Source of the DNA: Spisula solida
Lineage: Eukaryota; Mollusca; Bivalvia; Venerida; Mactridae
Length of the DNA: 64,000 bases
Assembly: GCA_947247005.1 (NCBI GenBank)
Contig: OX365953.1
Span: 28,270,784 to 28,334,783 of the forward strand
Direction: 5' to 3'
In this document: positions 10,750 to 49,715 of the stretch, piece by piece
Layout of the letters: each line of letters starts with the position of its first letter
Position numbering within the stretch: the stretch's first letter is position 1
Made by a program: the position numbers and the translations under genes
Notes under the pieces: generated by a model
Seen by the model: only the letters and a program-made list of their open reading frames with translations
Databases searched by the model: none
Told to the model about the DNA's origin: nothing

Positions 10750-11306
10750 AATATGGACGTGGCGCCTCTGAACAAAATGGAACTTTACTGTCGGATGCAG
10801 CAAGCAAAGCCGAAATTTTAGTTGATCAATTCCAATCCGAGTTCACAAAAGATACAAATCAACAGAACCCTCAACCTCCAGGGGAAGTATATCCTGAAGC
10901 ACCACACACACACATTAGTATACCAGAAGTTTTCAAACAACTGAAAAACATTAACACTTCTAAAGCTATTGGACCTGATGCTATCCCTAGCATAGTTATT
11001 ATACTATATGTATTTCAGTATTTATAGGACCATGGCGAGCTTCCAAGCGATTGGAGGGATGCAAACGTTGCACCGGTGTTAAAGAAAGGAGATATACACT
11101 TGGCCGCGAATTACAGACCAGTAAGTCTTACGTCAGTAACATCCAAATTATTGGAACATATTATGTGTAGTCCTCTACTGAAACATTTTGATAAACATAA
11201 TAGTTTATCTTCATTAAATCATGGCTTTCGTTCAGGATACTCCACGGAGACCCAGCTCATATTCACAATGCATGACCTTCTATCTACATTTGACAAGATA
11301 GAACAG

Positions 11307-11452
11307 GGGTGGTATTCAGTATTGATCTTATTTAATTTGAGAATAAGGATAGCCAACCATAGTGCCTGTTACTGACCAAGAGTTAAATATTGTGTGATCT
11401 GATTGGTTGTCCTTATCCTTAAGTCGAGTAAGATCAATATTGAATACCACCC
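11307..11452. mobile_element. 146-bp hairpin MITE inside LINE RT, CAG target duplication
   Basis: Inverted ends GGGTGGTATTCAGTATTGAT and GGGTGGTATTCAATATTGAT; the second pair of arms (AAGGATAGCCAACCA against AAGGACAACCAATCA) extends the stem. Flanked by CAG at 11304-11306 and 11453-11455. Taking the element and one CAG away rejoins the RT frame across LSTFDKIEQ/ADVAILDF. A 3-bp duplication suggests PIF/Harbinger-like mobilisation (inference). Confidence 0.88.
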
Positions 11453-12399
11453 CAGGCTGACGTCGCCATTCTAGACTTTTCGAAGGCCTTCGATACAGTG
11501 CCTCGTGGTGTACTCTCATCTAAAATGTCCAACTACGGGGTCAGTGGAAATCTACTGCGGTGGCTATCATCTTTCTTAAAGAACGGATCCATGAATGTTG
11601 TGTTTGGCGGTGAACATTCAAGGAGCGTAAACGTTGACTCCGGAGTACCGCAGGGCACGGTGTTGGACCCACTTATGTTTCTAAGTCATATAAACGATTC
11701 GCCTCTTAGTGTAAAATCATTGGTTATTCTTTTTGCTGATGATTGCTTACTATATCGCACTATACGCAGTCTACAAGACCATATAGAAATGACTTACATC
11801 CTCTAGAAACCTGGTCTGAAACCTGGGGCATGAAATTTAATGCTAAAATGCTATATTTTGAGCATCAGGAATAAATCGTCGGACTTTTATGAGCTCAACA
11901 AAACATCCTGAACAGTACGGACTCGATCCCATACCTCGGACTTCTTATTTCAGAGAACCTTGCATGGTCGAATCATATTACACATATCTGCAAGGGAGCT
12001 AACGCATCATTAGGATCCCTTTAGAAGAAATTTGAAACATTTTCCACAGTATGTCATTAAACCGCATATATTGCCCTAGTTAGATCCAAATTGGAATATG
12101 CATCCATAATATGGGATCCTTTTTTGAACAAAGACATCGACAAAATAGAACGGATCCAGAGACAAGGTGCCAGATTTATATTAAACGACTACAAGAGCAG
12201 AGAAGAAGGCTGCGTATCTAACTGAAGATGACAAACCTCCAAGAACGACGTACACATAATCGACTGGTGATGCTCTACAAAATAGCAGGAGTTTTGGTGC
12301 CAGCAGTGGATCCTAATACCTGTAACCACGGAACTTTGGTGATTTCGTAGTGTCAAATATACTAGACAGTTGATAGGTTTGGGAAGGTATTAAATATAG

Positions 12400-28077: not shown

Positions 28078-28254
28078 ATGTCATTTATTGCCCAGTTATG
28101 CAGCGTTTTATACACATTAGTGTTTGGAGTATTGGGTTTGTTATTTTGGAAAGCTAGTAGGTTTGTAAGTCGCTCACTGACTCTTCGTAAGAAACTCAGT
28201 TCAGTACCAAGTTTGCCTAGACATTGGTTGTTCGGTAACACCCAGAAAGGACAG
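28078..28254 (+). CDS. P450 exon 1: membrane anchor and hinge
   Basis: Codes for residues 1-59 and ends in phase 0 at ACAG|GTAATA. It holds a hydrophobic helix, a basic stretch and the proline-rich hinge. An in-frame ATG also exists at 28030. I prefer 28078 because a TATA box at 28017-28025 would put the transcription start near 28047-28055, past the earlier ATG, and because CYP4 proteins usually have a short N-terminus. Confidence 0.85.
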
Positions 28255-31200: not shown

Positions 31201-34200
31201 GGCAACTAGGAGAAGTGCAGTGACCAAGGACCATAACTCTATGTTGCCCAGTTTTGAAATTATATCCCTTCCTTAATTTGAAGATAACTTTTTGTCCAGA
31301 GCATAACTCTAAACCCATTTGAGGTATTGACTTTAAACTTGATATATGCATAGATGGCAACACGGAGAATAGCAGTGACCAAGAATCATAACTATATGGA
31401 GCCCAATTTTAAAATTATCTCCCTTCGTTGAATTTTAGGATGTTTTTTGCCCAGAGAATAACTTCAAAAGTATTCATTTGATTGACTTGAAACTTTACAT
31501 ATAAGTAGATGGCAACTAGGAGAAGTGAAGTGACCAAGGATCTAAAATTTATATAGTCCGTTTTGAAAATATATCCCTTAAACAGCTGTTAGTTAACAAA
31601 CATTTACTTCGGGAGGTGGCCATGTGAACGTGACTCTTGTTTTACGTTATACTTAGAACATATTAAGTAAATTTTAATGATTAAAAAGGGCGGAGCGAGC
31701 GAAGCGAAGCGAGTCCTTTTTAGTCATTAAAATTTACTTAATATGTTCTAACTGGCTTAGAATATAACATCCTGCTTCTTGATTGGCCGATAGAAATTAG
31801 CGCCATCGCATGACGTCAAGTAACTATGTTAAGAGACAATTTTAATGATTAAATTTTCATTTAACCACCAAAATGCGGCGTTGTGATTGGCTCATAATGT
31901 AGGTTATATTCTAATTCAAATTAAACTTTGGTAGATATAATAAACATAGTATTACATTCTCTATTTACCCTCGGAGTTAATAAGGCGACTTAATAAAAGC
32001 ATTTCCAATATCAGTGAAAATGTTTATGTGCTAACATCAATTCACTATAAATTTAATGTTACCATACGACAATTTTTAAAATACGTTTATCAAAGCAGGG
32101 CAGCACTTTCAATGCGAATCGTGCTCGTCCACCATATTCTATTATTATATAATAAGTGTTTTTATCTTTGTTCAAAGGCGTTGTTTCGTGACGACAATGA
32201 ATCAATCGTGACGACAATGAATTTAACCGGCTATGTAATAGATATTGACATATCGTGACGAAAATAAGGAATATATCTTGTTATATCAGGCGAAAGTGAA
32301 ATATCGTCGATTGTATGAGATACATATATTAGATTTCGTCGAATGCGCTAACTTGGTCGCTTGTATCTGATATCATGTTAACACTTGCGACAGGATTCCA
32401 ATTGGAGGTGGGGGGGGGGGGGGGTAGCGTTGCAATTTCCTTTCAGTAAAATTAATGTATAATGCTGTGATATTTTTGGATAGAATTTCAAACTCCTGTG
32501 GTGAAACTGCTCGTGTTACGCATTCTTGATTTTTAGCTCCACTATTCGTATAATAAGGAGAGCTATTGCAGTTACCCGAGCGTCGGCGTTGGCGTCGGCG
32601 TAATGCCAGCCTAGCATGGCACTGCAACTAGTGGAGCGCACTGTTCGTTGACAGCTCTTGTTGTCGAGACCGCATGCGGTGAGCGAGACTTAATCGCCAC
32701 TTTTGGTGCATGTGCGTGCGTAAGTGCATGGGTCCGTCCGATTTTGTCTGGACCATAACTTTTTCATACATTGACCAATCTTTCTTTCATTTGGCATTAA
32801 TGTTAACCTCCATGAGTGCCATGGCCAACCTTTAGGTTCCTATCGCAAAGATCATGGTCACAGTTGGAGGTCAAACATTAAGTTGAAGTTATACCTTTTC
32901 TTTGTCATGCATTGACCAATCATTCTTATAATTGGCATGAATGTTAACCTCCATGAGGCGGAGTGTCGTGCCCAACTCCAAGGTTCCTATCTCAAGGTCA
33001 CAGTTGGAGGTCAAGGGTCAAATTGAAGGCTTAGTGAAGTTGTAGCCTTTTTTCAATGTGTGCTTGGGCTCGACATAATTTGCTCGCATCCGAATATATT
33101 CTTTATTTCTTAAACGCACGTACTTACAACGGCATCCGTACCACAGGGTCACTAGGGGGGGGGGGGGGGGGGGGTCCCAGCCAACATGCCGAATACCTGT
33201 GATAACGATGACAATCGCACAGACACCGTTAGCTGTTAGCACGTTGTCAGCAGAAACAGCTCGCCTGTCATGTGCACGAAGTACGATGGACACAGTCACT
33301 CTTTCCAGCGGAAACGGTGCGTCGACGTAGTCCCTCTGTACTTCATTTTCCTAGTATTTAAAAAACAACTTAGCGCTCGTAGCCTCCTAAAACACGTACG
33401 TTTGGTGTTTGGTCTTATAGGTGCTGAATATTCGCTGTGTTATCTTACAAAACAATTAGGTCCACATCCCAAAATAATTTATTGAACACAATACTCTATT
33501 CTTTATAATTATTCTACCTACAGGTACAGTCAAGTTTTTTTTATTACTATTCGACTTACAGGTATAGTCAAGTTCTTTAGTACTATTCGACTTACAGGTA
33601 TACTAGTAGCCAGGTTCATTATTACCATTCTACTTACACGTATAGTCAAGTTCTTTATAACTATTCTACTTACAGGTATAGTCAAGTTCTTTATTACTAT
33701 TCTACTTACAGGTATAGTCTAGTTATGTACAAGTGTTCTACTTACAGATAGAAGATTCTAAAAGTTATCTAGATATATTGGTCAAGCAGGCAAATGCTGG
33801 GAACAAACTATTTTGTGCATGGATTGGACCAATCCCTGTTGTATCCGTCCTTCATGCAGACACATTCAAATCACTCATTAAACAGACGAATGAAAAGTGC
33901 AAAGGCGCAACGGATGGCTACGATTACTTCGATGCTTGGCTAGGTAAGTACAAAGGCGCAACGGATGGCTACGACTACTTCGATGCTTGGCTAGGTAAGT
34001 GCAAAGGCGCAACGGATGGCTACGACTACTTCGATGCTTGGCTAGGTAAGTGCAAAGGCGCAACTGATGGCTACGATTACTTCGATGCTTGGCTAGGTAA
34101 GTGTAAAGGCATAACTACGATTACTTCGATGATTGGCTAGGTAAATGTAAAGGGGCAACTGATGGCTACGATTACTTCGATGCTTGGCTAGGTAAGTACA

Positions 34201-37200
34201 AAGGCGCAACGGATGGCTACGACTACTTCGATGCTTGGCTAGGTAAGTGCAAAGGCGCAACGGATGGCTACGACTACTTCGATGCTTGGCTAGGTAAGTG
34301 CAAAGGCGCAACTGATGGCTACGATTACTTCGATGCTTGGCTAGGTAAGTGTAAAGGCATCACTACGATTACTTCGATGATTGGCTAGGTAAATGTAAAG
34401 GGGCAACTGGTGGCTACGATTACTTCGATGCTTGGCTAGGTAAGTACAAAGGCGCAACGGATGGCTACGACTACTTCGATGCTTGGCTAGGTAAGTGCAA
34501 AGGCGCAACGGATGGCTACGACTACTTCGATGCTTGGCTATGTAAGTGCAAAGGCGCAACGGATGGCTACGACTACTTCGATGCTTGGCTAGGTAAGTGT
34601 AAAGGCACAACTACGATTACTTCGATGATTAGCTAGGTAAGTGTAAAGGCACAACTACGATTACTTCGATGATTGGCTAGGTAAGTGTAAAGGGGCAACT
34701 AATGGCTACGATTACTTCGATGCTTGGCTAGGTAAGTGTAAAGGCATAACTACGATTACTTCGATGATTGGCTAGGTAAGTGTAAAGGGGCAACTGATGG
34801 CTACGAATACTTCGATGATTGGCTAGGTAAGTACAAAGGGGCAACTGGTGGCTACGAATACTTCGATGCTTGGCTAGGTAAGTGAAAAGGCGCAACTGAT
34901 GGCTACGACTACCTCGATGCTTGGCTAGGTAAGTGCAAAGGCGCAACTGATGGCTACGAATGCTTCGATGCTTGGCTAGGTAAGTGTAAAGGCACAACTA
35001 CGATTATTTCGATGATTGGCTAGGTAAGTGTAAAGGGGCAACTAGTGGCTACGATTACTTCGATGCTTGGCTAGGTTAGAGCAAAGGCGCAACTGATGGC
35101 TACGAATACTTCGATGATTGGCTAGGTAAGTACAAAGGGGAAACTGGTGGCTACGAATACTTCGATGCTTGGCTAGGTAATTGAAAAGGCGCAACTGATG
35201 GCTACTACTACCTCGATGCTTGGCTAGGTAAGTGCAAAGGCGCAACTGATGGCTATGAATGCTTCGATGCTTGGCTAGGTAAGTGCAAAGGCGCAACTGA
35301 TGGCTACGACTACTTCGGTGCTTGGCTAGGTAAGTGCAAAGGCGCAACTGATGCCTACGAATACTTCGATGATTTGCTAGGTAAGTGTAAAGGGGCAACT
35401 GGTGGCTACGAATACTTCGATGATTGGCTAGGTACAATTTAAGTGTAAAGGGGCAACTGGTGGCTACGATTACTTCGATGATTGGCTGGGTAAGGGTAAA
35501 GGGCAACTGATGGCTACGATTAACTCGATGATTGGCTAGGTAGGTGTAAAGGGGGCAACTTGTGGTTAAGATTACTTAGATGTTTGGCTAGGTAAGTGTA
35601 AAGGGGCAGCTGGTGGCTGCGATTACCTTGATGATTGGCTAGGTAAGTGTAAAGAGCAACGGATGGCTACGACTACTTCGATGCTTGGCTAGGTAAGTGC
35701 AAGGAGCAATGGATGGCTACGACCACTTCGATGATTAGATATTCAACATGTGTTCGTTGTGAATAAAACAACTTGCAATCGACTAGTAAAACGCACTCAG
35801 GAATTTGCATAAGATAAATGGGTATACGAAGAGGTACATGCCATTTACGTTACGTTTGAAAAAATAGTACCCAGTAGCGCAAATGATGTAAATAGCGCAA
35901 ATGATGTAAAGTCTTAACGTTCTCACCTTTACGTGTGCATTGTGTTCACAAGGTAACTGCTGTATATTACTGTATCCAATATCCATATGGCATGACTGGC
36001 AGAGATAAAGTGCTGTTCTGTTCAGCATGACAGCTCATTTGCTTAATTCGTGTGAAGCAAAAACAAACATATTTAGTTTGCCTGGAAATAAACCCCTACT
36101 TTCCTGAAGACCATCTCTCTAATATAAAAGTTGCATAAACATTCGAGAGGTTCAAGAAGAAATTGAGTTGAACATGAAAACGGTTATACAGACTCGGGCA
36201 CTGATAGTGCAAAATATGAATTCTAAATTGAATTTTAATGAGTATGCTAGTGTTTGTGTTAAACATTAAAGTAGGTGTTAGTTTACATTTTATTAATGTA
36301 TGGTCACGACATAGGCGGACTACGTGAGGCGACATTGAATACTATTTATTATGTTAAATATCACAACCTAGTCGATCACGATATATTGTATTTGCTTGAT
36401 GTAATGTGAGACCTATTTAACGTACAGGAGACCTGTAAGAATTATGGTGGCAAAGCTCGTATCTAAATTCAACGCAAATATTCAACTCAAGATTCTATCA
36501 TACATGTAGGGTCTATAGTCAGGCCTACGAACGAGATATTAGGGTAAAACCCGGCATCGGATTGGATAGTAGGTTTAAATATTTTTGGCATTCTGATGGG
36601 GAAATATCAAACAATATTTACTACACAATCCAATGTCTGGTCATTTTTATGACTGACCGAACTGTAGATAGGTATTTTGTTGTTATTTTATTCTATATTA
36701 ATATAAACGTATTAAAACAAAATCGAATTTCATTGCAAGGTGATGGGCTCCTCGTCAGTGAAGGGCGAAAATGGGAGAGAAACCGGAAGTTGTTAACACC
36801 AGCGTTCCATTTTGACATTCTCAACGGATATATACACATTATGAATGAAAGTTCCAATGTGCTTCTGGTAACCGCTTATTACCTCCTTATATTTAGTTAC
36901 AATTATATTACAACCTCTGTAGACCAACACGCTTCTGAAGCTGCAAATATTGCCTATTGCTTACAGGTAGTTGCTATACAGAGGTTAAATTTATAGTCAA
37001 TATCTACAGAGGTTGTACTGTAGTCTAAAACTCGAGCAGCACCTGTTTGTAGATTACCTGACTATCATTTTAAGTTTCAAGATTACATCGTCTATTAGTT
37101 GTAAATTATACACCAGCTATTTTCCATATATTTACTCAAACATAAATCGCCAACTCATTTCATATTTCATTAATTTGATATGATATCATTCGCCGATATT

Positions 37201-40200
37201 TTAGATCTACTTGAATGTTTGTGTAATTTTGCGATACAAAATAGAGACGAATGAATACATCGCTGGCTTAGAATTAGAAGGTCGTAAGACTTAAGTACAA
37301 AATCATATTTTGATAAAACAAGAAAAGCTGTCTAAAAACTACTCTTTACGTATGGGAAAACAAGTTTTTCAACTGCAGTTCGGTCAACATGTCCGATTGT
37401 CATGAAAAAAGGCTCATAAGAAGCACCTTGTGATGCAGATTTCAAATATGCATGAGTCTTATAATGTCGTAAGTAGTACTTACGACCTTCTCATTCTAAG
37501 TCAGCGATTTGTATGCATACCTTATTTTACAAAAAACCTTACAGAAGGACGAAGTTCTATTTAATCATACGAGTAAACGTTTTGTAGGACAAATTGGCTA
37601 CTGACACATCCGGTGGAAAGTATGTGGACGTGTTTCCATATATCTGCGAGACGACACTGGACTCTATGTTGAAATGTTCGTTGTCTTATCAAGGGAGTAT
37701 TCAAACGAACGCATCAGAAAGGTACGATACAACCTCAACAGGGATTTATATACACACTAGCTTTGTTTTTAAATGCCCTGTCCCAACACGACGTACAGTA
37801 ACGTACCTGGCTGTGTGCAGGGAGGAGTATAGGATAGAACATGAGTAGCTGTTGTATATGGGACTATAACTCCGAGCGAAGTGTTATACCCACTACACTA
37901 ATTGGATAGGTTTCCTGGATAGGCAGTATGCATAGTTAAAACGCATTTAATATAAAATGGCAATGTGAAAATGTAGGTGACTAAAATGACTAAGCAATGC
38001 CAACAACTCAACAACTCAACAAAATATATCAAAGTTTAAATTATCACAAAATGATAAAATTTGAAGTTAGATTTTGATCTAATATTTATGTATGAATCAT
38101 TACTATCAGTTTGTTGCATTTTGTATTAAAATATGTAAAGGTACGTCACCTTCAATGAAGTCATCGGTTTTTAGAGACTGCAATTGATATCATTGTATCC
38201 ATGCATTCGGTAACTGCAGCTAGTTAACACTTTCGCTGCCAGGCACCCTTTATAAACAGTTCTGCCCTGTGCCAGACATTTTTGGAATTATTCCTGGGAA
38301 TGGTATGTCCTTACAGGATTGTATCATGTGGAGTTATTTATCAATGTATCTTCAAGTTGATGAAACTTTACATTCATGATAGGGATACTATCTGGTACAA
38401 ATTCTTGATTTGATTTTACCCTTGCATTACAGTGAGAAAGGCTACATTCGAGCTATCAAACGTATATCAGAATTGATGTGGGCACGATCTATGTAAGTAT
38501 AGTCTTAATATTGTAAACTAAATGATACCAAACGTTTATAGTATGCAGCAGTGCCACTTTTGTTTAAACGACAAAACTTAAAGTCGCATTGGATATAATT
38601 ATTATAGTTAGGATGGGTTATCATGCAACACTGGAATATTTTAAAATACAAATAAATGCAATATTTAATGTAACTTTTGTATAAATTATTGTATTCAAGT
38701 ATGTACAATAATAACAGTTTTATAAATCGGTTAGCGAATGGACAGTGTACAGAATTACATTTTCGGCGGACGCCCGACGTAAACCAATAAACCAACTAAT
38801 CATCGGACGGCGATGTGATTGGATTTAAGGTGATTCCCAACTCTTTTTTCTGTACAAGAGGTATCAAACACCTGATTTTTATGAAGAACAGACTCATGAT
38901 AGTGATTGTGCAAACCCATAACAGTTTTGCTAGGCTAGTTTTTAAGATATTTTTTAATTTTGGGGAAACCCCCTAAAAACTGATATTTGCATTTTACCGA
39001 AAAGGTTGAACATTTTATTTCTTGAAACTTGGCATGCACGAAATTTCGTATATACGGAATCACACATTAACGTTTGTTTTAGAATATGCATGTTATATGT
39101 ATTTTTAAATGATATTTTAAAATTATGTGATTTTTCATTTTTAAGTTATACGAAACAAATAGTTGAACAACATACTGTTTTCTTACATGCAACCAGTAGA
39201 GTAACTATTATAGAAGTTGTAAACCAAATTTCATGGCAGTTGCTCGGCTAGATTTTTTTGATTGACTCATTAGTGATTTCGGAAATGTCGAAACCAGGAG
39301 AGTTTACAAAATACATCAACGTTTTGAATACGTTGTATCCAGTTTTCGCGATAATTTGTTTTTGAAAAATGTGTATATTTAAAGAAGAGCCCAGTTTTAG
39401 CTATATGCTCTTTTGCATACGCTAGTCTATATTCTTACGAAATAAATGCAAAGAACCTTCCTCTTAAGTAGTCGGGATGCTTGCTAAACAAATACTAAAA
39501 CTTAGATAAAATTTGGTGTGGGCGCATTATAAAACGTTTCACATACATTGTAGCTAGTATTCGTGAGTGTTGGTGTTTCAACGTTAACTTTGGAATAAAT
39601 GGCACATAAAATTGATGCTATATTTTTATTCTGCAAGCTTATTGTAGTATAATATAGTAATAACTATACAGTAAATCGCGATTTTAAGACATGAGAACAT
39701 GCTGACGAATCAATTTTTAATTTTTCGGACTTTTTCATCATGGTAGTCAGACGCTTTTAATACGTCTTATTTACACCGATGTCCAGACTTCCGCTCAAAT
39801 GAAGAGTTTGCAATCACCTTAAATACAACACAATAACAAATGAGGAAATATCTCAGTCAGTAAAGCGCAAGGTTCAGTCGCAACAAGGTTATGTTTTTAT
39901 GATGCGCGAGGTCGCATCCAACTCATTCTGGTATTTCTAAAAGAATATACCTTGTTTATTTAGTTTTTCTTCTTCTTTTTTCGTTTGGTCTTTTCTTTAT
40001 CGATTTTGTAATTTAAAAGTGTTGAGAAAATGAAAAAAGACAGAAATATAAGAATAGACAATAAATGGATTTTAACCTGCCTACAAAAATAGCATACCTG
40101 GTAAATCATATATAGGCTGACGCGTTACCATTGAGCAACTGGGGCTATTGGAGAAATGATTGCCCCATTATGATGTCTACCAAATTTTCCGGTTAATTAG

Positions 40201-43200
40201 ATGTGAAGGTCACTGTTGCGTTTATTTACTATTGCTAAATTTAGCCCGGGCAATTTATGTTTGTCCAACTATACAGTTACCCATGGTACAATTTTTAGAG
40301 AAAATAAAAATAAACAAGCTTTTTACCAGTTTATGATCAATAAAATAATGTATGAAAAATAAAAGAGCTCTGGCCCCTCGAACCCCCAATTCATCTCAAA
40401 TAGAAAATCTCAACTCAAATTGAAATTTTGCGAAAATCAGCGTTGGAATTAGAGATAAATCTGAAGCTTCAGCTCTTGATTTTTTTCTGTAAAAACTCAG
40501 AATAACATTCTGTTTAGTGATGCAGATTTTGAGTCAAGCCTAGCATAGAAATTAACATGAGACATGCCAATATTTGAGATGAAATCTTGCTCAGATTGAG
40601 ATGCTTAGGGAGATTGGGGCCTGGCATTAGGTCTCACATAAAAAGTTTTTATACCAAAGTTCGATTAAAATAATTCACTTACATTTCACTTGATATATAA
40701 ATATATGTGTTTTTACAGTCAGCCAATGTTAACCATAAAACCAATCTTCAACATGCACCCAATGGGTAGAGAGTACCAACGGCTCTGTGATCAAGTCCAC
40801 AAATTCACCGGAAATATTATACAATCGAGGACAAACGAGCTTGTATGTACACATATACTGAGTGCATGTACCACATGACCTTTCTGCTATTCACAGGCAC
40901 AAAAACATGGCTGATTCATTCAATTAATCCATCTAAATAATGGCACAAGACAGATGAGAGCTGTCTCATAAAAAAGAAAAACGCTCTGGTGTATCTTTTA
41001 TGTAATTTTTAATTGTCTCGTTTTTGATTTAAAACTTTAAACGCGCATTTGAGTATCAAAATGTGAAGCAGGTTAGCAGGCGTATTTTCTAACCAATCAC
41101 GCCATAAACTACTTTTAAATTAGAATTCGTGAACTCCATGGCCGTCTAGAATTTACGTTAGTTTTGTAATTTTAGTTTTGTCCCCACCATAGTCAAGCTG
41201 GTGTGATTTGCTTTACAATAGAGACACTATACGCACATAAAACATACATCAGAGCGCGTTTCTTTTTAATGAGACGGCTCCCACCTGTCATGTGTTCTTA
41301 TTTAGAAGGATTAGCACAAGACTGAAGAAAATTGACATCGAAAATGCATTTAATTTTTATTTGTAAACAAGGGCTAGTGTTATCATCGGTGGATTATATT
41401 AGGAGTTTGTGAAATGATTTTTCAAGAAGTGGTAACATAAAGGAACGAAGTTACTGTTGTTATAATAATATCTGTTCATATGGAATTTATTGACTTGGTT
41501 TGAATGATCTAATGCAAAAGTGCACCGTAACTAATTCATTTTAATTATGCTTCAATATTATCATGTTCCCATTTTTTACTGGGGATATGTCGCTTTGTAT
41601 ATGTCGGTCGGGTGATAGACCAAATAGTTTCCGTACGAAAACTCAAGGACTCTTGACCCTAGAATTCCCATACTATACACTGAGTTTGGCCATCACAAGT
41701 TGATTTTCAGGTCAAAGGTCAAGGTCGTAATGACTTGTAACATGAATGAATATACATAATGGTTCCAATCAATAACTCAAGAACAGTTGGGCATAGGATC
41801 TTCAAATATACCAAGAAGGTTGGCCGTCCATTGTAGATGTCTCATATTGATTTTAACCTCTGTATGCCAAAGGTCGGGGTAAATGTGGCCGTAAGATGGT
41901 CAATTGGATTAATTTGTTTCCGATCAATAACTAAAGAACGCTTGATCCCAGGTCATGCAAACTTGGCATAGGGGTTCGACTGCAAAAGCAAAGTACCCCT
42001 TTTGATGTTGAGGTCAAATGTGATGCCATGATGTGACCTTAAACATGAAAATAACTAGAGAAATGGTTTCCGGTCAATTGCACAATGACTCATGTTACAG
42101 AAGGCGAGCGAATCAGATGTTACGAATGGTACCAAGCGTCGCCTTGATTTTCTAGACATTCTTCTGACTGCAAAAGACTCAGAAGGCCATGGGTTATCTG
42201 CGAAAGAGATTCAAGACGAAGTGGATACGTTTACGTTTGAAGGTATGGTGGTATTGTGTTGGTAATATTCTGTGGTATTTGTTTGGGGCGTGGAACTGCG
42301 AAGGAACATATACCAGGTTATGCCACTGTTTGTTACCAAATACCACGGTATATATACTATGATACACCTGCAATTTTATTATAAAAGTTACAGTTATGAT
42401 AAAGTGGTCAGAGTAAAACGGACAATCACAGTCAGACTAATTGTAAGTTGAGAAAAACACTTGATTTTAGCCTGTACCGGAAGAAACAAAAAGGGTTTCA
42501 TTGGGAAAAGTACATATGATATACTTTGCTGATACGGCAGATAACTTCAAAATAATTAGAAGCAGGATTGAAATACACCTAAGGGATTAAGCCATTCAAT
42601 AAGTCTCCATTATTTTTCAGGAATGGAGACTTTATTAACAATAACTCTCCATTACTTTGTTTACACATTTGAATGAATGTGTAACAAAATAATGGAGTGT
42701 TATCCACTCTGTGTATACACACACATATGTAGTACTAAATGTACTTTTTGTGCAATATAACATAACATATTCGCACTGTACAATAGGATACGAGATAAAT
42801 ACAGACAAAAAAAGTTCCATGAATCCATCGATTTTGAATTACCGACATATTTATGCAAAAGAACACAAACTTCGGTTTGATCATGCAGCGCCTTTGAATT
42901 TGACTATCTGTATTGCGACACAAGGACATATATGTATACGATGACGAAAACGCGAGATGGCGAAAGCACGAACGTGTGATGACGAAAATGCGAGCAAAAA
43001 GTATGATAATATGCTATAATAATACCGTACTTTAAAAAATCGTGTTTTCGTCATCGTACATTTGCGTTTTCGTCATCATATTCACGAAAATGCAGCGACT
43101 TTATCATAAACATATATATGTCCACCATGTTTCATCAAGTTTTAAATATCCAGTCATTGTTTATTCACGGAAATATATTCACTGAACTATTAGAACACTG

Positions 43201-46200
43201 GTTTCATCATAAACATTTAAATAAGTCCATCATGTTATTTCATCCAGTGACACTGAATAAGTAACCACATGGCTTGATCATGTGACTACACAATCATGCT
43301 TCATGGACTACACTCCATTACTGTAGTAATGGAGAGTTATTGTATTATTCCACTGGTTTCACGAAAAAGCATAGTCTACTCGGTCTGGCATGGTCAAGTT
43401 TTGTGTTTTGATTATCTATAAGAGGTACATGAGGGACGACTTGTTTTAGTAAACATATACTAGTATTTTATAACAATTTTGAAATTTACTCCATATCTAC
43501 AAAAAATAAAATTACATTTGACAATATGGTGTATTTTAAGTCAGAGAACGTCCGCGTATCTGTCCATTCCTGATAAATAATGGAAACTCGGCCCCTCCGG
43601 GGCCTCGTCTCCATTATTTCTCAGGAATGGACAGATACTTGTACTTTCTCCCTAACATAATGTTGATAAAATACCGGTATTTCGAATGGTACCACGGTAA
43701 CCGGCATACCTGTAATTAATGTACGGGTCGTCGTGTACATCAAATTGTATATTTAACCGGTAAATGTATTTGTGTAGCTCGACGCAAAATGCGTACATAA
43801 GCAACTAGTATTAATTATAAGATTTAACGATCCTAAATACATAGCGTAATTGAGTTCATGTTGCTTTTACTGTATGTTGTGTACATTAAAGAAGGGCTCT
43901 AACTCTAGATCAGCAAATGCAATGTGTACAAACAACCAAACAGTAGATCAATGTACCTACTGTCGGTTCAAGAAGTAATACTAATGAGGGAACTATCCCA
44001 TTCAAAAGAATGGGGGGGGGGGCTTATGTTTTATATAATAAAATAGATACTTTCAATCAATAGTATAATACTTGAAAATCAGTGTTCACACCGTCTCGTT
44101 AGTCCAGTGGATAAGCATGCCGCTATTATACCAGTAATTTTGTTGAGATTTTGTTCAATATCGCCACTACTAGTTCGACACCCATCCAAGTTACACGAAT
44201 TTGAAAGTTTTTATCTTTTACAAATACCTTATTTTTTATTTGTTAGTTATATAATAAAATACACGAAGTAAGTTATGTGGATGAATGTTGTGTTATGTTT
44301 TCATACTTTAACTATCAAGTCATATATTTTCAATTACTTTATTTATATCAACAGTACAATATCACACAATTGTAAATATATTCACTACACCAAGAACATT
44401 TTATCATTTGAAGTAAGGGTTCAATAAAGCAACAGCATAATATAAGATTTATAACATGGATACATGCTTATTAATAAAACAGTTGATCGAAGTGGGGATC
44501 GATCCTACAACTCACACTAAAATAGAAACATGTTGGAAGTGTGCGCTTACCCACTACACTACATGATATATGTGTGAGATTTGCACACTATTTGATATCG
44601 AACCCATTTAAAGTTTACCTAACGAAAGAGTTTATGTTTATAACGTTTCTCATTTGACTTTGAACATACTGTATTGTAAAAAGAGCACGATATTCACATA
44701 ACAAGTTGTAGGGTGGACACTAGTGTTAAGGGCTACTGACTGCTGATCTGGAGGTTGTGGATTTGATCCCTACTCCAGACGGTCAAAAACAGAAATACTT
44801 TTCAGTGTTTGCCACCTAACACAACTAAAATTACTATCAATCTTTGGACGAGACGTTACACGAGGTCCCTTGCATGATGCTTTACATCGGCACGTAAAAG
44901 AACAAGGGATGTTTCTGGAACTGGGGCACCTTCTGAATCATGCACTATCCCACAAAAACTAAAGTGACTAGCCTCTTCTGGGCGGGCTCGCCCATATGGA
45001 TTTCCGGTGGCGAGGATAAATAAAAGCAAATAAAAAATAAAAAAAATCATCTAATTTTTGTACTTACAGGACATGATACAACGGCTTCTGCAATCAGTTG
45101 GGCAATATATGCTCTAGGGAAATACCCGGAGTTACAACAGAAAGTGTATAAAGATGTATGTGATGTGCTTGGAGACAGTGATACCGTCACAAAGTAGGTG
45201 GAGATGACATGCAATCTCATTGAAATCAGTCCCTAACATTTCCTACATTCCTTAATACGCTGTTCATTAAATCACAGGCCTAAGAAATTATATCACAAAA
45301 TACAGAGTTTTGAAATTCCAAATCATCCGGTCATTACTATATATAAGAGAACAGGTTGGAAACGTATTTTTCTGGTCGCTGCATGAATCCACTATTTAAC
45401 GCCTTATCGGACCGGGAAACGGTTGCAATCGAGTCTAGATGTGAAATACTACACACACAAAACAATCAATTTATCTAGACTATTTAACGTGTCTTAAGTT
45501 ATATTTCAGGTATTTCGCCGACGAGTCGTTCTTTTGGATTTTATGACTGTCATTGTTTACAAATTATTCTAGTCTAGTCCGGCAGGAGGTATCGGAAGAT
45601 ATCGGGAGAACATCGCCGATGAGGAATTCTTCTATGGGACATAGGCTTCATAAAATGGTTATGCATTCCTTTACATTTCAGAGACCATCTTGGCAAATTC
45701 ACCTTCCTACCGATATTCATCAAGGAAGTATTGCGTTACTTCTCCCCTGTGCCAATCATTGGAAGGGCCAACTACACATCTCCGATCGTTTTAGATGGAA
45801 TAGAAATACCAGCCAATGTATCTGTATGGGTACAGATATATGCTATACACCACAACGAGGACACTTGGCCAAATAACATGGTACTATTTCCGGTTTTTAT
45901 AAACAATGGAAAACTTTTTCACTCATTTGCTACCCATTTCGTCATTCCGTCTTTATTTAGTTTCTGCTGATAATCAAAATCATTACATTGACATTGGATT
46001 TTACATTTGGAAATATGTTCATTTTGTACATCATACATGAAAGAAGCACTACACGTATAGACCCTAATTTCAAGGTCAATGTCACAATACTAAATACTGG
46101 TTTCTACCAATATCTGATGAAAGATTTAACCAAGGATCTTTAAACTTTATGTGTATATGTGGACATGTTGATGGCCCTCATTGCTTTTGAGGTCACTATG

Positions 46201-49200
46201 TTTTAGGTCAAGGGAATTGACATGGGTAGCGTATTTTCGCCATCTATATGGCTCTACATATCAATAGCAGACGAATTAGTATTGTTGTAATAACTTGTAG
46301 CCCGATCCTTTTGTAATGATTGCGATATTATAAAACTTTCTCTGGTTTACTTTGATGTTATGCTTCTATTCTTTCTTAAAAGTATTATGTTGTAACAATT
46401 CATGCAATAAATTAAGATTAAACTAATGAGTAATGCATTTCATATGTAATGAAGTCATGAAAACGTTGGGTCGGTGAAGCCATAGTGACGTTACTGTACA
46501 GTATTTATGATTATTCGATCAAATACTTTATATCTATATTGATTATGTTCATAGTTTAGTATTTGTATAGTTCGCCGGGGATAACTCTAGCCTTATCAAT
46601 AAACAAACAAAGCAAATTATAAACACTGCGCGGTCGAATGGCTGCCAGTTATCAGTGTAGATTTAAAGAGTATATCATTAAAAGTGTATATGCACAAGAT
46701 TGAACAAAAATGTATATCGAAAATGTATTTAATTTTCATTTTTATTTGTAAACAAAGGCAGGTGTTATCTCCGGCGAACTATAGCACATGTGTAACACCA
46801 TGTGGTGTATTTGTTTTTATAGAAGTTTGACCCGGAGAGATTCAATGTTAATCACCGTGACGAAACAGATGTGTATGGTTTTGTGCCATTTTCAGCTGGA
46901 TCTCGGTAACTTCTCTTTCTTGTTTGTTAATTTTGTCTTTACTTGGTTTTAAAGTAGCCTCTATTCCTATAACTTCGTGCATTCCTACAAGTTCGTGCAT
47001 TTTAGTAAAACGTAGATTGCTTTGCTAATAATCTCATTTCCAAGCCAAAATTAATTTTAAATTACTAACAAAACATTTATCCAGCCGAACAATGCAAAAA
47101 AATCGACAAAACAGGGTTCGTTACGTTTACGGCGAGTTTTATCCGAGGAGGGATTTTATTGTTTACATAATCACCGGTTCCGGTCGTGAAATCTGGAGAC
47201 ATTTGTTAATCTCATAATTTGCATTAGATGCGATATATTTACGAACGGGAAAATGTGCTAATTTACTGACAAAAGATCAAACTTTATGTTACAATACTTT
47301 TTATTAGCAAAATCTTTCCCGTGCGTTTTTAATGACGTCATCAGTTTATGTGCACGAACTTACAGGTCACAAATGTTTATCTTAAGACTGCAGACTGCAT
47401 CTAACATTGAGGCCGATTTTTCAACTTTTTGCAGTTTGGCATTCAATTTGTGTTTGAATTTTGTTAATAGACAGATAATTGATATTGTTTATCACATGGT
47501 TGGTCCCAGTGTATTTGTTTTTGTGCAGATGCGCCAATTTTCAATCTAAGATGCACGAACTTGTAGGTGTAGAGGCTAAATCCACGAATTATAAACGTAA
47601 ATTGTTATTCGGCGGTTTAGTAATTAGTCATGTGATAGCACATAGTCCAGCAATTAATAAGATTATGCTAGTTTCATCGAACGTACGGAAATTATTTTTG
47701 TTATTATATCTGCATCTTACAAACAAAACACTCATGCACCCCTTACCCTTCAAAATGCTGACTTCCAGTTTTCCGCAACAGAACAACCCTTCGAGTACAT
47801 ATTGATAACCATCTTAACTTCAACACACATATTGAACAGACTCTTAAAAGATGCAACTCTCTTTTCTTTCTTCTCCTTATCATAAAATACTATATTGACC
47901 AAAACAAACAAACAAACAAACAAACAAACAAACGGGAAACTGTTTTTCAGATTCTATATTCTTCCCCATCTTGACTACTCTATCACAATATGAGGAAATT
48001 CAACTTACCTTCTACCTGATAGACTATTCAAATTTCAAAACCGTCCTTCAAGTATTATTCTAAAACAATGACTTTGATTCACCTGCAGAGCTTTTTCAAA
48101 GCTTGAGATGGATGACTATCTATGAAATAATTGATAATAAAAAGGCCTTTCTAGTGTATAAAAATCTTACCCAATACGGTTCCAAAATAACTTCATTCAA
48201 AATTTCAAGTTACAAATTACAAATTACCAGTAACTGTTTGGCAATGTTTCGAATCCCACTATTGATGCAAACTTTTCATTGCACAACTGCGCTATTTGTG
48301 CTTCACATTGCTCGTCTATGGCGTCGTAAAGTATAAATTGGAACCCAAGTTATAAATGTAAAACATTGATATTCGAGTGTCTTATTTTACCACACAGAAA
48401 CTGCATTGGGCAAGTGTTTGCAACCAACGAAATCAAAATCAACGTGGCAAAAATGGTCAAGAGGTAATATAATACTTCTATCTTATCCTTATAAAGTTAT
48501 AAGTACATGTAAGTATATTTCTATTGGATAAGCACGGATAATTTGACCTGATCCTAACCTTTATGCATGGATATTATACAAGGTTCTTGCATTGAATATA
48601 TTAATTTCCGCGATCAAATCGTGCAATATATGCAATATATGGATAAATGACTTTAAATTAAATCTATAGATATGTCATTTTTATACGCCCGTTTGAAAAA
48701 CGGGACGTATTATTGGAACACCCTTTTCGGGCGGGAGGACGGGCGTCCGGACGGGCGGCGATGTCCGGCAGTTTGTCTGTACACTAACGCTCAGAGTTTT
48801 CATCTGATCGTCTTCAAACTTTGTGACAATGGTTATGGGCATAATATCTAGGCCAAGTTCGATTATATGCCAAATCGGCTTAGGCCTTATTTGGTTATGG
48901 GCCTTTAATTACCAATTAAGTATGAAATAGGCCTTGTCTGTGCTCTAACGCAAACAGTTTTCATCCGATCGTCTTCAAACTTGGTGTCAACGCTTATGGG
49001 CATACATGTAATATCTAGGCCAAGTTCGATTATAGGCCCAATCTGCCCAGACCTTATTTGGTTATGGGCCTTTAATTAACAAATAATTATGAAATAGGCC
49101 TTGCCTGTGCTCTAACGCAAACAGTTTTCATCCGACCATCTTCAAACTGTGTGACAATGCTTATGGGCATAATATCAAGGCCAAGTTTGATTATATATAT

Positions 49201-49715
49201 GTTTCTTCTTTATTTTTTCTTTATATTTTTTTTTATTTTGCCCTGAGACTCACCATGCCTCGAGACGGGCGTATTTTTTTACATTTGGCTCTTGTTTTTT
49301 TATTTGAAAGTTGTTTTAAAACCTTGTTACATGCAGTAATTACATAATGTTAATATAGCAGGTTTTCCTGGAGACTGGCTCATATATAAAAACAAAATAG
49401 TATTAAGTCGGACAGGGAAGGCAGCACTCAACTTTACCAGTCGAGCACAGAAAACAAAAAATTATACAAGGCACAATGCCCTATCAGGTCGAGGTATGGA
49501 ATTTCTGTTAATCATTCTACACATCTCCTCTCGGAATATAACTCATATAGTGGTATTCATGTTTGAACGGGGTATTGTTTATGACATTATAAGCAATATT
49601 TGTGTTTTTCAGGTTTGAAGTATCGCTTGACCCAGCCAAAGAAGCCATATTGCTGCCGGATGTTGTCATGAGAGCCGAGAAAGGAATCAATGTACGATTT
49701 AAGGCCAGGCAATAG
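28078..49715 (+). CDS. CYP4-family cytochrome P450, complete 12-exon gene
   Basis: Haem-thiolate monooxygenase of the CYP4 clan; family members hydroxylate fatty acids or eicosanoids in the ER using NADPH-P450 reductase. Exons: 28078-28254, 33748-33943, 36740-36867, 37588-37721, 38433-38492, 40719-40842, 42101-42242, 45070-45193, 45682-45880, 46823-46905, 48398-48463, 49613-49715. All introns are GT-AG and phases agree; the sum is 1536 nt, giving 511 residues plus TAG, the usual CYP4 length. Motifs: N-terminal membrane helix (about 6-24), proline hinge VPSLPRHW (43-50), C-helix WERNR (136-140), I-helix FEGHDTT (319-325) including the Glu that in many CYP4s links covalently to haem, K-helix EVLR (377-380), FDPERF (430-435), haem loop FSAGSRNCIG (451-460) with Cys458. 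The substrate is unknown. The exon-2 donor is embedded in a minisatellite, so longer isoforms are possible. Confidence 0.95.
29019..29800 (-). mobile_element. TTAA-flanked element, copy 2 (inverted, in P450 intron 1)
   Basis: Both ends carry GGTGATTCCCAACTCTT-type inverted termini next to TTAA (29019-29022 and 29797-29800; the right copy reads GGTAATTCCCAACTCTT). 782 bp and shorter than copy 3 by internal deletion. No transposase seen. Confidence 0.88.
29802..30176. repeat. Small inverted-repeat element after TTAA copy 2
   Basis: Arms of about 45 bp near 29810-29855 and 30128-30170 share AAAGTGAATTTATTGAAG and GACAGCAT in inverted orientation. Interior AT-rich and non-coding. Probably a MITE; no clear target duplication found. 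Confidence 0.6.
30285..30430 (+). repeat. Dispersed repeat also at 37300-37440
   Basis: AAACTGTCTGAAAACTATTC ... TCAGTTTGGTCAACAT matches 37300-37440 in P450 intron 4. Same orientation in two introns of one gene. No coding sequence or clear ends. Confidence 0.65.
30710..31643 (+). repeat. GTCCGTCC-leader repeat with ~160-bp tandem units (P450 intron 1)
   Basis: Starts near a C-run and CCGAAGTCGAAGG, then GTCCGTCCGTCC, then about five units marked by GTCCAGAGCATAACT, AGATGGCAACTAGGAGAAG and CCATAACTCTAT. Ends GTGACTCTTGTTTTA. Non-coding. Confidence 0.75.
31653..31751. repeat. 99-bp near-perfect palindrome
   Basis: TTAGAACATATTAAGTAAAT and its inverse flank a GC-rich centre GGGCGGAGCGAGCGAAGCG. 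Likely a small hairpin MITE. Confidence 0.75.
32335..32515 (+). repeat. Decayed relative of the CTACGGGATTCC MITE, with poly-G
   Basis: Shares AACTTGGTCGCTTGTATCTG and the GGATTCCA...AATTTCAAACTCCTGTGGT body with 6220-6430 and 21471-21650. A G-run interrupts it at 32409-32424. Confidence 0.6.
32650..33040 (+). repeat. Internally tandem repeat (two ~150-bp units) in P450 intron 1
   Basis: Marked by CATTGACCAATC, ATGTTAACCTCCATGAG and GGTCACAGTTGGAGGTCAA, twice. Non-coding dispersed repeat. Confidence 0.65.
33155..33175 (+). repeat. Poly-G tract of about 20 bases
   Basis: Uninterrupted G-run in P450 intron 1, one of four long G or C runs in the window (also near 30720, 32409 and 44010). Confidence 0.85.
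33512..33747 (+). repeat. Tandem array of 3' splice-site-like units upstream of P450 exon 2
   Basis: About seven 35-42 bp units, each with a pyrimidine-rich run then CTTACAG or a close variant. CAG ends near 33523, 33561, 33597, 33639 (mutated to CAC), 33674, 33711 and 33747; the last is the real acceptor. Most other units read CTTACAGGTATAGTCAAG, so each also holds a CAG|GTATAG donor-like site. The array ends exactly at the exon boundary. Confidence 0.9.
33748..33943 (+). CDS. P450 exon 2: beta-1 region to B-C loop, inside splice-site arrays
   Basis: Codes for residues 60-124 and the first base of Gly125. The acceptor is CTTACAG|ATAGAA; the first usable donor is CTAG|GTAAGT. Phase is 0 in and 1 out. 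The last 49 nt (from 33895) form the first unit of a tandem array, so the donor recurs every 51 or 44 bp downstream. Using donors at 33994, 34045 or 34096 would add 17, 34 or 51 in-frame residues. The first donor gives standard family length and is my main model. Confidence 0.88.
33895..35740 (+). repeat. 51/44-bp minisatellite carrying P450 exon-2 end plus 5' splice site
   Basis: About 36 units. The full unit is 51 bp (17 codons) and encodes [17 protein letters not shown] followed by the donor CTAG|GTAAGT. Shorter 44-bp units lack 7 bp of the GGCGCAACGGATGG segment and shift frame. The first 49 nt are exon 2; the rest is formally intron 2. About 29 units keep perfect GTAAGT; variants include GTAAAT, GTTAGA, GTACAA and GTAGGT. 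The first fifteen units form a higher-order pattern of four 51-bp units plus one 44-bp unit (248 bp). Similar open frames on both strands here are by-products of the repeat. Confidence 0.95.
35745..36510. other. P450 intron 2 remainder, no feature recognised
   Basis: From the end of the minisatellite to the MITE near exon 3 I see only AT-rich non-coding sequence. Short minus-strand open frames here have no family resemblance. Confidence 0.5.
36512..36666. mobile_element. Short MITE related to the 4.4-kb inverted-arm element
   Basis: The left arm reads ACCCGGCATCGGATTGGATAG and the right arm is the inverse of similar sequence, both matching the outer ends of the element at 15878-20270. Arms lie nearly back to back, as in an internally deleted derivative. 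It ends about 75 bp before P450 exon 3. Confidence 0.75.
36740..36867 (+). CDS. P450 exon 3: C-helix WxxxR
   Basis: Residues 125 (end) to 167. Acceptor TTGCAAG|GTGATG, donor CTTCTG|GTAACC. Contains GDGLLVSEG, the C-helix WERNR motif and the CYP4-typical [12 protein letters not shown] palindromic MITE relic ends about 75 bp before the acceptor. Confidence 0.93.
37588..37721 (+). CDS. P450 exon 4
   Basis: Residues 168-211 plus two bases. Acceptor TTTGTAG|GACAAA, donor GAAAG|GTACGA. Encodes [14 protein letters not shown], matching the CYP4 pattern (E/H)xxLxxxxxCxFS. Confidence 0.92.
38433..38492 (+). CDS. P450 exon 5
   Basis: A 60-bp exon, residues 212-231 plus two bases. Acceptor GCATTACAG|TGAGAA, donor CTAT|GTAAGT. 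Reads [19 protein letters not shown], in phase with exons 4 and 6. Too short to stand out as an ORF; found by phase and CYP4 pattern. Confidence 0.88.
38825..39822 (+). mobile_element. TTAA-flanked element, copy 3 (full length, P450 intron 5)
   Basis: 998 bp including TTAA target duplications at 38825-38828 and 39819-39822. Left terminus GGTGATTCCCAACTCTT; right terminus is the inverse of GGTGATTGCAAACTCTTC. Non-coding; best reference copy for the family in this window. Confidence 0.88.
40719..40842 (+). CDS. P450 exon 6
   Basis: Residues 232-273. Acceptor TTTTTACAG|TCAGCC, donor GAGCTT|GTATGT. Includes [20 protein letters not shown], equivalent to the CYP4 segment SxxGrxfrraCdxVHxFT. Confidence 0.93.
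41560..42090 (+). repeat. Dispersed repeat with ~130-bp internal units (P450 intron 6)
   Basis: Degenerate units marked by ATCAATAACTCAAGAAC, AGGTCAAAGGTC and variants. Non-coding; it runs to within about 10 bp of the exon 7 acceptor, leaving a poor pyrimidine tract there. Confidence 0.65.
42101..42242 (+). CDS. P450 exon 7: I-helix, first half
   Basis: Residues 274-320 plus one base. Acceptor TGTTACAG|AAGGCG, donor GAAG|GTATGG. Contains [14 protein letters not shown] and [10 protein letters not shown], the start of the CYP4 I-helix, including Glu320. A dispersed repeat occupies the intron nearly up to this acceptor. Confidence 0.94.
42598..43340. repeat. Inverted-repeat region around TCTCCATTA motifs (P450 intron 7)
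   Basis: AATAACTCTCCATTACTTTG (42648) and the inverse AATGGAGAGTTATTG (near 43328) face each other. GTCTCCATT...AATGGAGAC at 42605-42637 is a local hairpin. A second imperfect inverted pair, GATGACGAAAACGCGA against its complement, lies at 42940-43090. Possibly one decayed foldback element. Confidence 0.5.
43556..43638. repeat. 83-bp palindrome
   Basis: GTATCTGTCCATTCCTGA and its inverse flank TAATGGAAACTCGGCCCC and its partner. A compact stem-loop with GC-rich tip in P450 intron 7. Confidence 0.75.
44098..44570. repeat. Pair of converging tRNA-like heads
   Basis: At 44098-44200 (+) the sequence TTAGTCCAGTGGATAAGC with a later GTTCGACACCC resembles A and B boxes. At 44485-44570 (-) AGTGTAGTGGGTAAGCGC and GGATCGATCCCC do the same. 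Neither folds into a complete tRNA by eye (interrupted arms, no matching acceptor stem), so I read them as SINE heads in opposite orientation. Confidence 0.45.
44707..45048 (+). mobile_element. tRNA-headed SINE, copy 1 (P450 intron 7)
   Basis: Head resembles a tRNA with a B-box-like GGATTTGATCCC at about 44759. The body (CTTTGGACGAGACGTTACAC, TTTACATCGGCACGTAAAAG) recurs inverted at 62375-62690. Tail is A-rich (AAATAAAAAATAAAAAAA). The tail stops about 20 bp before the exon 8 acceptor. Confidence 0.8.
45070..45193 (+). CDS. P450 exon 8: I-helix HDTT
   Basis: Residues 321-361 plus two bases. Acceptor TACTTACAG|GACATG; donor CACAAA|GTAGGT is chosen over a GT four bases later because it keeps phase with exon 9. 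Encodes [20 protein letters not shown], the oxygen-activating I-helix and J-helix start. The A-rich tail of a SINE ends about 20 bp before this exon. Confidence 0.92.
45682..45880 (+). CDS. P450 exon 9: K-helix ExxR
   Basis: Residues 362-428. Acceptor CATTTCAG|AGACCA, donor AACATG|GTACTA. Encodes [18 protein letters not shown], then the SRS5 segment and [13 protein letters not shown], standard CYP4 features. A longer open frame overlapping this exon from 45553 is in a different frame and is spurious. Confidence 0.94.
46823..46905 (+). CDS. P450 exon 10: PERF and haem loop start
   Basis: Residues 429-455 plus two bases. Acceptor TTTTTATAG|AAGTTT, donor TCTCG|GTAACT. Encodes FDPERF and FVPFSAGSR; the intron interrupts the haem loop just before the Cys. 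Confidence 0.93.
47740..48345 (+). pseudogene. LINE reverse-transcriptase C-terminal fragment (P450 intron 10)
   Basis: Decayed tail of a CR1/Jockey-like RT: LDRLFKFQ-type residues near 48015-48060 and [19 protein letters not shown] with [13 protein letters not shown] at 48068-48170, the typical C-terminal thumb region. Several frame changes and a CAAA microsatellite (47903-47933) interrupt it. 5'-truncated, as is common for LINE copies. Confidence 0.8.
47903..47933 (+). repeat. (CAAA)n microsatellite
   Basis: About eight AAAC/CAAA units inside the LINE fragment. Confidence 0.9.
48398..48463 (+). CDS. P450 exon 11: haem-ligand cysteine
   Basis: A 66-bp exon, residues 456-477 plus two bases. 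Acceptor CCACACAG|AAACTG, donor AAGAG|GTAATA. Encodes [20 protein letters not shown]; Cys458 is the axial haem ligand. It lies about 57 bp after a LINE fragment. Confidence 0.92.
48678..49298 (+). repeat. ACGCCCGTTT internally tandem repeat (P450 intron 11)
   Basis: Starts TATACGCCCGTTTGAAAAAC followed by its complement (a small hairpin), a GGGCGGGAGGACGGGCG leader, then about three units of roughly 150 bp (AACAGTTTTCATCCGATCG ... GGTTATGGGCCTTTAAT), and ends in GGCTCTTGTTTTT. An inverted copy lies inside the LINE at 9840-10749. Confidence 0.8.
49392..49495 (+). repeat. GTCAGACAGGG repeat, fragment in P450 intron 11
   Basis: TATTAAGTCGGACAGGGAAG then AGCACTCAACTTTACCAGTC; truncated. Ends about 118 bp before exon 12. 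Confidence 0.7.
49613..49715 (+). CDS. P450 exon 12: C-terminus
   Basis: Residues 478-511 and TAG. Acceptor TTTTTCAG|GTTTGA. Encodes [11 protein letters not shown] and the C-terminal beta-sheet ending in VRFKARQ. No convincing polyadenylation signal was assigned; ATTAAA occurs near 50150. Confidence 0.92.

Follow-up and report, generated by a model that had tools for sequence, protein, structure and literature searches.

A probable mirage-type minisatellite at the end of exon 2 of a CYP4-type cytochrome P450 gene in the clam Spisula solida

We analysed a 64,000-nucleotide (64-kb) stretch of the genome of the clam Spisula solida (assembly GCA_947247005.1, contig OX365953.1, forward-strand positions 28,270,784 to 28,334,783; "the window", located on contig C11 of the clam's own genome in our searches). 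In it, a cytochrome P450 gene of the detoxification type carries a tandem array of 37 units that starts in the coding end of exon 2, runs into intron 2 and repeats the 5' splice site (the donor array), and a second, smaller array directly before exon 2 that repeats the 3' splice site (the acceptor array). The donor array is probably a minisatellite born from a splice site, of the kind known as mirages in amphioxus. The features are as follows, in window positions; TRF stands for Tandem Repeats Finder, and a slash marks a splice junction.

33895..35736, + strand: donor array of 37 tandem units with 28 CTAG/GTAAGT; unit 1 is the coding end of exon 2 (TRF and segmentation)
33487..33747, + strand: acceptor array, 7 tandem units of 36-42 nt at the 3' end of intron 1 (TRF 33499-33747 and unit inspection)
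28078..28254, + strand: exon 1 of the CYP4-type P450 gene (tblastn with five homologues, splice-site inspection, translation)
33748..33943, + strand: exon 2, with donor 1, ending in phase 1 at WLG/DGLL (tblastn, translation)
36740..36867, + strand: exon 3, whose acceptor is common to all donors in the model (tblastn, translation)
37588-37721, 38433-38492, 40719-40842, + strand: exons 4-6 (tblastn, splice-site inspection, translation)
42101-42242, 45070-45193, 45682-45880, + strand: exons 7-9 (tblastn, splice-site inspection, translation)
46823-46905, 48398-48463, 49613-49715, + strand: exons 10-12 (tblastn, splice-site inspection, translation)

The gene model is homology-based, resulting from tblastn with five homologues, inspection of exon boundaries and translation. 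It predicts a complete gene of 12 exons (28078-49715) with a coding sequence of 1536 nt for 511 amino acids (aa), open to the stop and with GT-AG borders at all introns. Five exon pieces were compared with the Pfam family p450 (PF00067), giving two clear matches (E 2e-12 and 4e-12), a weak one (0.09) and none for two short pieces, and the joined exons matched CYP4B1 in the PDB with an E value of 6e-33. The translation contains FSAGSRNCIG, which we take to be the heme-binding Cys motif of P450 enzymes. By family match and Cys motif the modelled gene is a CYP4-type cytochrome P450, intact in the model. Among the 120 homologues listed of 400 found, Mactra antiquata supplies the closest proteins (57% over 82% of the query) and other bivalves come next; none of the 120 is identical.

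TRF reported a 51-bp unit in 36.8 copies (33895-35733), and segmentation against the consensus resulted in 37 units with the array ending at 35736, 26 of them 51 nt long, six (units 5, 10, 15, 16, 18 and 23) 44 nt long and five of other lengths. A unit consists of the last ~49 nt of exon 2 plus the donor, so that the repeat crosses the exon/intron boundary as placed by the gene model, and AG/GT is retained in many units: CTAG/GT occurs 34 times over the 37 units. The + strand of the window has 28 copies of CTAGGTAAGT, every one inside the donor array, and the minus strand has none; one extra junction, CTATGTAAGT (CTAT/GTAAGT), brings the number of GTAAGT in the array to 29. At the far end unit 37 breaks off at GATGATT, before any donor. 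In the clam's 932-Mb, 36-contig genome a 20-nt core of the unit occurs 15 times, always within this array. An earlier reading of the DNA letters (the sequence-only reading) had described about 36 units at 33895..35740 that repeat the last 49 nt of exon 2 plus GTAAGT, in a P450 gene whose intron 2 has its acceptor at 36740. Segmentation and copy number, the PF00067 and CYP4B1 matches to an intact 12-exon model and the exon 3 acceptor directly before 36740 bear out all of this. Its further statement that about 29 units carry GTAAGT after CTAG holds for the number of GTAAGT, exactly 28 of which follow CTAG. The locus is richer than it described: it did not mention the acceptor array before exon 2, the 248-bp higher-order repeat, the limitation of in-frame donors to four or the donor arrays elsewhere in the genome.

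The array has an internal order as well. A second TRF solution gave a period of 248 bp in 7.4 copies, and comparison of units 2-6 with units 7-11 yielded 0, 0, 0, 1 and 1 differences, revealing a 248-bp higher-order repeat; this nested order points to past turnover of the array. The 26 full-length units comprise 21 distinct DNA sequences. Long tandem arrays are often misassembled, and one amphioxus mirage haplotype was aberrantly assembled in a genome draft (PMC3087553), which would fit a collapsed or expanded repeat produced by the assembly. The diversity of the units, their graded divergence along the array, the nested order and the presence of the same kind of arrays with other units elsewhere in the genome argue against such an artefact, and we consider it highly improbable.

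At the other end of exon 2, each of the seven units of the acceptor array ends in a TTCTACTTACAG-like acceptor with CAG kept in 6/7, and the last unit provides the exon 2 acceptor in the gene model. Use of four upstream copies that keep AG, at 33561, 33597, 33675 and 33711, would lead to a stop at codon 61 or 62. When both arrays were placed randomly in the gene, the observed arrangement was obtained 2 times in 200000, in a test devised after the arrangement had been seen. A common origin of the 36- and 51-bp units was considered and rejected, their similarity being not beyond chance (34% of shuffles were as good). In the gene model, both ends of exon 2 are multiplied, by unrelated units.

Units of the donor array could be removed from each other because each carries AG/GTAAGT, and one might imagine a recursive or Rogers-type intron factory that excises them as scarless 51-nt multiples or uses them as ratchet points, where competition between donors has been described (PMC8605326). 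The 34 CTAG/GT and the AG/GTA found at five of the six junctions within the acceptor array agree with such a process, as do the Rogers model and the introns that span several AGGT repeats in fission yeast (PMC4974935). On direct reading, however, the pyrimidine tract at the CTAG of the units is poor, and 44-51 nt is short for an animal intron, making this a very improbable explanation.

To determine the consequence of each donor for the protein, exon 3 was attached to each of the 34 donor-like sites and the product translated. Only donors 1-4 are in frame. With each of the remaining 30 of the 34, translation reaches a stop at about codon 190, and it is the first 44-nt unit that closes the array's open frame:

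33944..33949, + strand: donor 1 (GTAAGT), 511 aa (translation)
33995..34000, + strand: donor 2, in frame, +17 aa, 528 aa (translation)
34046..34051, + strand: donor 3, in frame, +34 aa, 545 aa (translation)
34097..34102, + strand: donor 4, in frame, +51 aa, 562 aa (translation)
34099..34142, + strand: unit 5, the first 44-nt unit, which closes the open frame of the array (segmentation, translation)

Scored against the U1 consensus, the 28 CTAG/GTAAGT sites match at 8/9 positions, compared with 4-7/9 for the donors of the gene's ten other introns. An RNA structure that exposes the donors was rejected, as the donor 9-mers had a mean unpaired probability of 0.007 against a mean of 0.018 and a median of 0.009 for the array background.

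Comparison with the relatives identifies the predicted donor 1 product as the form that aligns with them and matches their length. Residues 100-140 are spanned by 117 of the 120 listed homologues (the alignments of P0013, P0014 and P0042 do not span them), and 0/117 have an insert of more than two residues there. The junction motif is present in 116/120; as a repeat would close with this motif too, that count alone is no proof that an insert is lacking. Repeated 8-mers were found in P0021 only, where the repeat, TPAFHFDI, sits in the peptide of the next exon. For the Mactra relative P0002, a protein without insert and the only one in which the loop was modelled, an AlphaFold model (mean predicted local distance difference test score, pLDDT, 89.8; 36-sequence alignment) places the counterpart of the unit between helices at 96-105 and 133-143, with the junction at G125/D126. 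We take these to be helices B and C, and the B-C loop between them to be substrate recognition site 1.

The position of the insertion site between helices B and C and the in-frame status of donors 1-4, as opposed to 30 of the 34 tested sites, would suit a working splice-choice device. Regulated use of donors 1-4 would produce isoforms whose B-C loop is longer by 0, 17, 34 or 51 residues, and use of later donors unproductive mRNA that tunes dosage. A precedent exists in human IFI6, for which two further repeat units downstream are reported to act as splice donors, giving three mRNA species (PMC4526556). Against such a device stand the 117 homologues that span the site, which lack an insert of more than two residues there, and a search that used exon 2 and four units as the query, in which none of 935 candidates reached an E value of 0.01 or better; the latter is weak evidence, as the search reached only proteins of ~70-230 aa and no protein of the clam is among the 120 listed homologues.

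Also against it, neither the donors nor the repeated 17-aa unit gave a significant signal of selection. The nine donor columns show 9 departures, compared with a mean of 25 per nine-column stretch (rank 6 of 51), yet their conservation is not significant relative to random nine-column sets (9.9% of draws, p 0.099 by units), and the number of distinct variants does not differ between donor and other columns (p 0.57). No purifying signal was detected on the 17-aa frame, where 8 of 27 distinct changes are synonymous with an expected share of 0.235 (p 0.50); translation of the 26 full-length units gives 17 peptides, of which 14 have no stop. Selection on the donors or the reading frame was consequently rejected, nothing significant having been found, and we regard regulated splice choice as unlikely. 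Along the array the exon-side units are nearest to the consensus and the intron-side units most diverged (Spearman 0.64, p 0.0005 over 26 full-length units that are not independent of one another), the pattern one would see if turnover were highest at the exon side. Together with the lack of significant donor or frame conservation, this gradient suggests that the array looks near neutral and has grown recently on the exon side.

Taken together, we consider it likely that the donor array is a mirage-type, splice-site-born minisatellite in a bivalve CYP4 gene that is spliced out from donor 1 or its neighbours and is largely neutral. As the tail of exon 2 starts with AAGT and the donor is GTAAGT, short direct repeats flank the copied stretch, and slippage or unequal exchange between these AAGT repeats could have started the array. 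Where a copy joins the GT of the intron to the AAGT at the start of the exon tail, a strong donor is re-formed, which explains the GTAAGT at the junctions, and repeated exchange, most recently near the exon, would have expanded the array. The spliceosome would then use donor 1, perhaps with some use of donors 2-4, and remove the array along with intron 2, whose first 1.8 kb it makes up, leaving the protein normally unchanged. If used, donors 2-4 would lengthen the B-C loop by 17-51 residues, and splicing from later donors would yield mRNAs that carry premature stops; with donor 1 in use and the array removed, the array would mainly be tolerated at the price of low-level isoform noise. Judged from the DNA, the repeat is thus probably mostly harmless, and a few longer versions of the protein may occur.

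Three observations weigh against this interpretation. Of the 28 best donors, 24 lie beyond the fourth, and equal competition would result mostly in non-productive mRNA, contrary to simple tolerance; departures in the donor columns are fewer than average, although short of significance; and the ancestral single-copy donor is not visible, unit 37 ending without one, so the first duplication is a reconstruction. The sequence-only reading had pictured dozens of donors for one acceptor, acting as a splice-choice cassette or a U1 sink or being a harmless variable-number tandem repeat. The dozens of donors exist as sequence, while 30/34 tested give a premature stop. The harmless repeat fits best of the three, in view of the non-significant donor conservation and the seemingly neutral changes among units. 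For a splice-choice cassette, the in-frame donors 1-4 and the 28 strong U1 matches allow a limited role, and the U1 sink, for which nothing speaks except the 28 sites on one transcript, was dropped.

We searched the clam's own genome for similar arrays with a pattern of three AGGTAAGT separated by gaps of 25-55 nt, in which overlapping matches of one array are counted several times, and obtained 6403 matches, whereas the mirror pattern gave 709. On contig C1, the first 32.16 Mb contain 11 donor-array places, all of which were inspected and whose units look unrelated to each other, and 3 mirror places, one of which is a dispersed element. Outside arrays, in 143 kb chosen around them and hence biased, the single 8-mer occurred 15 times against 5 for its mirror, and GTAAGT 93 times against 130. 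An excess of donor arrays beyond donor frequency is not evident from these counts, the ratio of places, 11 to 3, being close to the 15 to 5 of the single 8-mer.

One of the 11 places, L044 (C1:13964000-13973000, minus strand), has 37 GGTAAGT donors, mostly 20 bp apart, the first of which directly abuts an open stretch that follows a likely acceptor and encodes 28 residues. Residues 2-27 match mitochondrial calcium uptake protein 1 (E 6e-11), and EF-hand models match as well, suggesting that the array begins at the end of a MICU1-like exon. In L040 (39 bp) and L048 (52 bp) the unit is an exon-like tail plus GTAAGT, as in the P450 gene, and by eye L040, L046, L047 and L048 have the appearance of exon ends. 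Homology searches with L039, L040, L041, L045, L046, L047, L048 and L049 returned nothing convincing. L047 (C1:25998500-26007500, minus strand) has a 48-bp donor array behind an exon-like stretch, and more 48-nt units past the array are open over long stretches. L049 (C1:32156500-32165500) contains 124 GGTAAGT in a 36-37-bp array that extends almost to the end of the fetched stretch.

A slim chance remains for a bolder proposal, in which splice-site-born minisatellites form a genome-wide class in the clam and the P450 array is an evolvable cassette that swaps loop peptides by exchange or donor choice. Because unit 1 belongs to the array, unequal exchange could alter the expressed end of exon 2. 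If the proposal is true, exchange would also alter the number of in-frame donors, and 17 unit peptides (14 without a stop) of a substrate-recognition loop would be available to the enzyme.

Other repeats were noted in passing. Intron 3 contains an inverted repeat (37259-37508, 49-nt arms, 80% complementary), and ~20 nt of its arm recur downstream of the L043 array, perhaps as a small dispersed element. Another dispersed element, starting TGAATGGAATTGAGTTAAGTTGAACTG, occurs at several listed places, e.g. C1:14886524, C1:33577593 and C2:24339391. Elsewhere in the window lies a 47-bp tandem repeat (1716-2185, 10 copies, 99% matches) that is probably very young or homogenised. Two reverse transcriptase pieces (11028-11803, + strand, PF00078, separate frames, one under the curated cut-off) are probably a decayed retroelement, and a weak DDE_3 transposase match under the curated cut-off is located upstream of the P450 gene (23885-24232, minus strand).

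Amphioxus mirages are described as minisatellite-like tandem duplications across an exon/intron boundary, 5' or 3', in Adh3, the globins BflGb6 and BflGb9 and TnC, with PGBD5 compared with them; regular splicing is reported to be undisturbed, and length and somatic instability are noted (PMC3087553, PMC3902484). Like them, the clam repeats span an exon/intron boundary and many units bear AG/GT. Unlike them, the array resides in a mollusc rather than a lancelet, is known from sequence alone, has 37 units compared with 3 and 6 in the two BflGb6 haplotypes, and belongs to an exon whose donor and acceptor are both multiplied, by unrelated units. The Rogers 1989 model explains intron gain by tandem duplication of AGGT, the protein being unchanged after splicing (PMC4974935). 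The clam array shares the tandem copies of an AGGT-bearing exon segment; its repeats, however, stand at the start of intron 2 and do not imply a new intron. Human internal tandem repeats of ~30 bp at exon-intron boundaries are reported to alter gene structure and to be able to activate cryptic splice sites (PMC2812944). They resemble the clam minisatellite in their location and differ in lying in segmental duplications of the human genome, with four copies on average. In the open-licence literature, screened by title and start of abstract, we found no molluscan or P450 example, which is not proof of absence.

The repeat unit of human IFI6 (6-16, G1P3) measures 12 bp. Its exon-end minisatellite, like the clam array, presents several donors (Turri 1995, as listed in PMC4526556); it belongs to another gene, the clam unit is 51 bp long, and downstream donor use is reported for IFI6, whereas the clam donors are read as sequence. 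In our analysis the amphioxus mirage appears as the closest known kind and IFI6 as a functional precedent. The clam locus would extend splice-site-born repeats, known from lancelets, to molluscs, in higher copy number and at either side of a single exon, and the way in which the spliceosome picks one of dozens of near-identical donors could be studied here in a clean natural test. Should such arrays prove common, they would provide many replicate loci for the seeding of minisatellites by splice sites, for intron gain and for protein length variation. The clam array probably belongs to the mirage kind and is unusual within it in size, in host group and in that both ends of one exon are hit.

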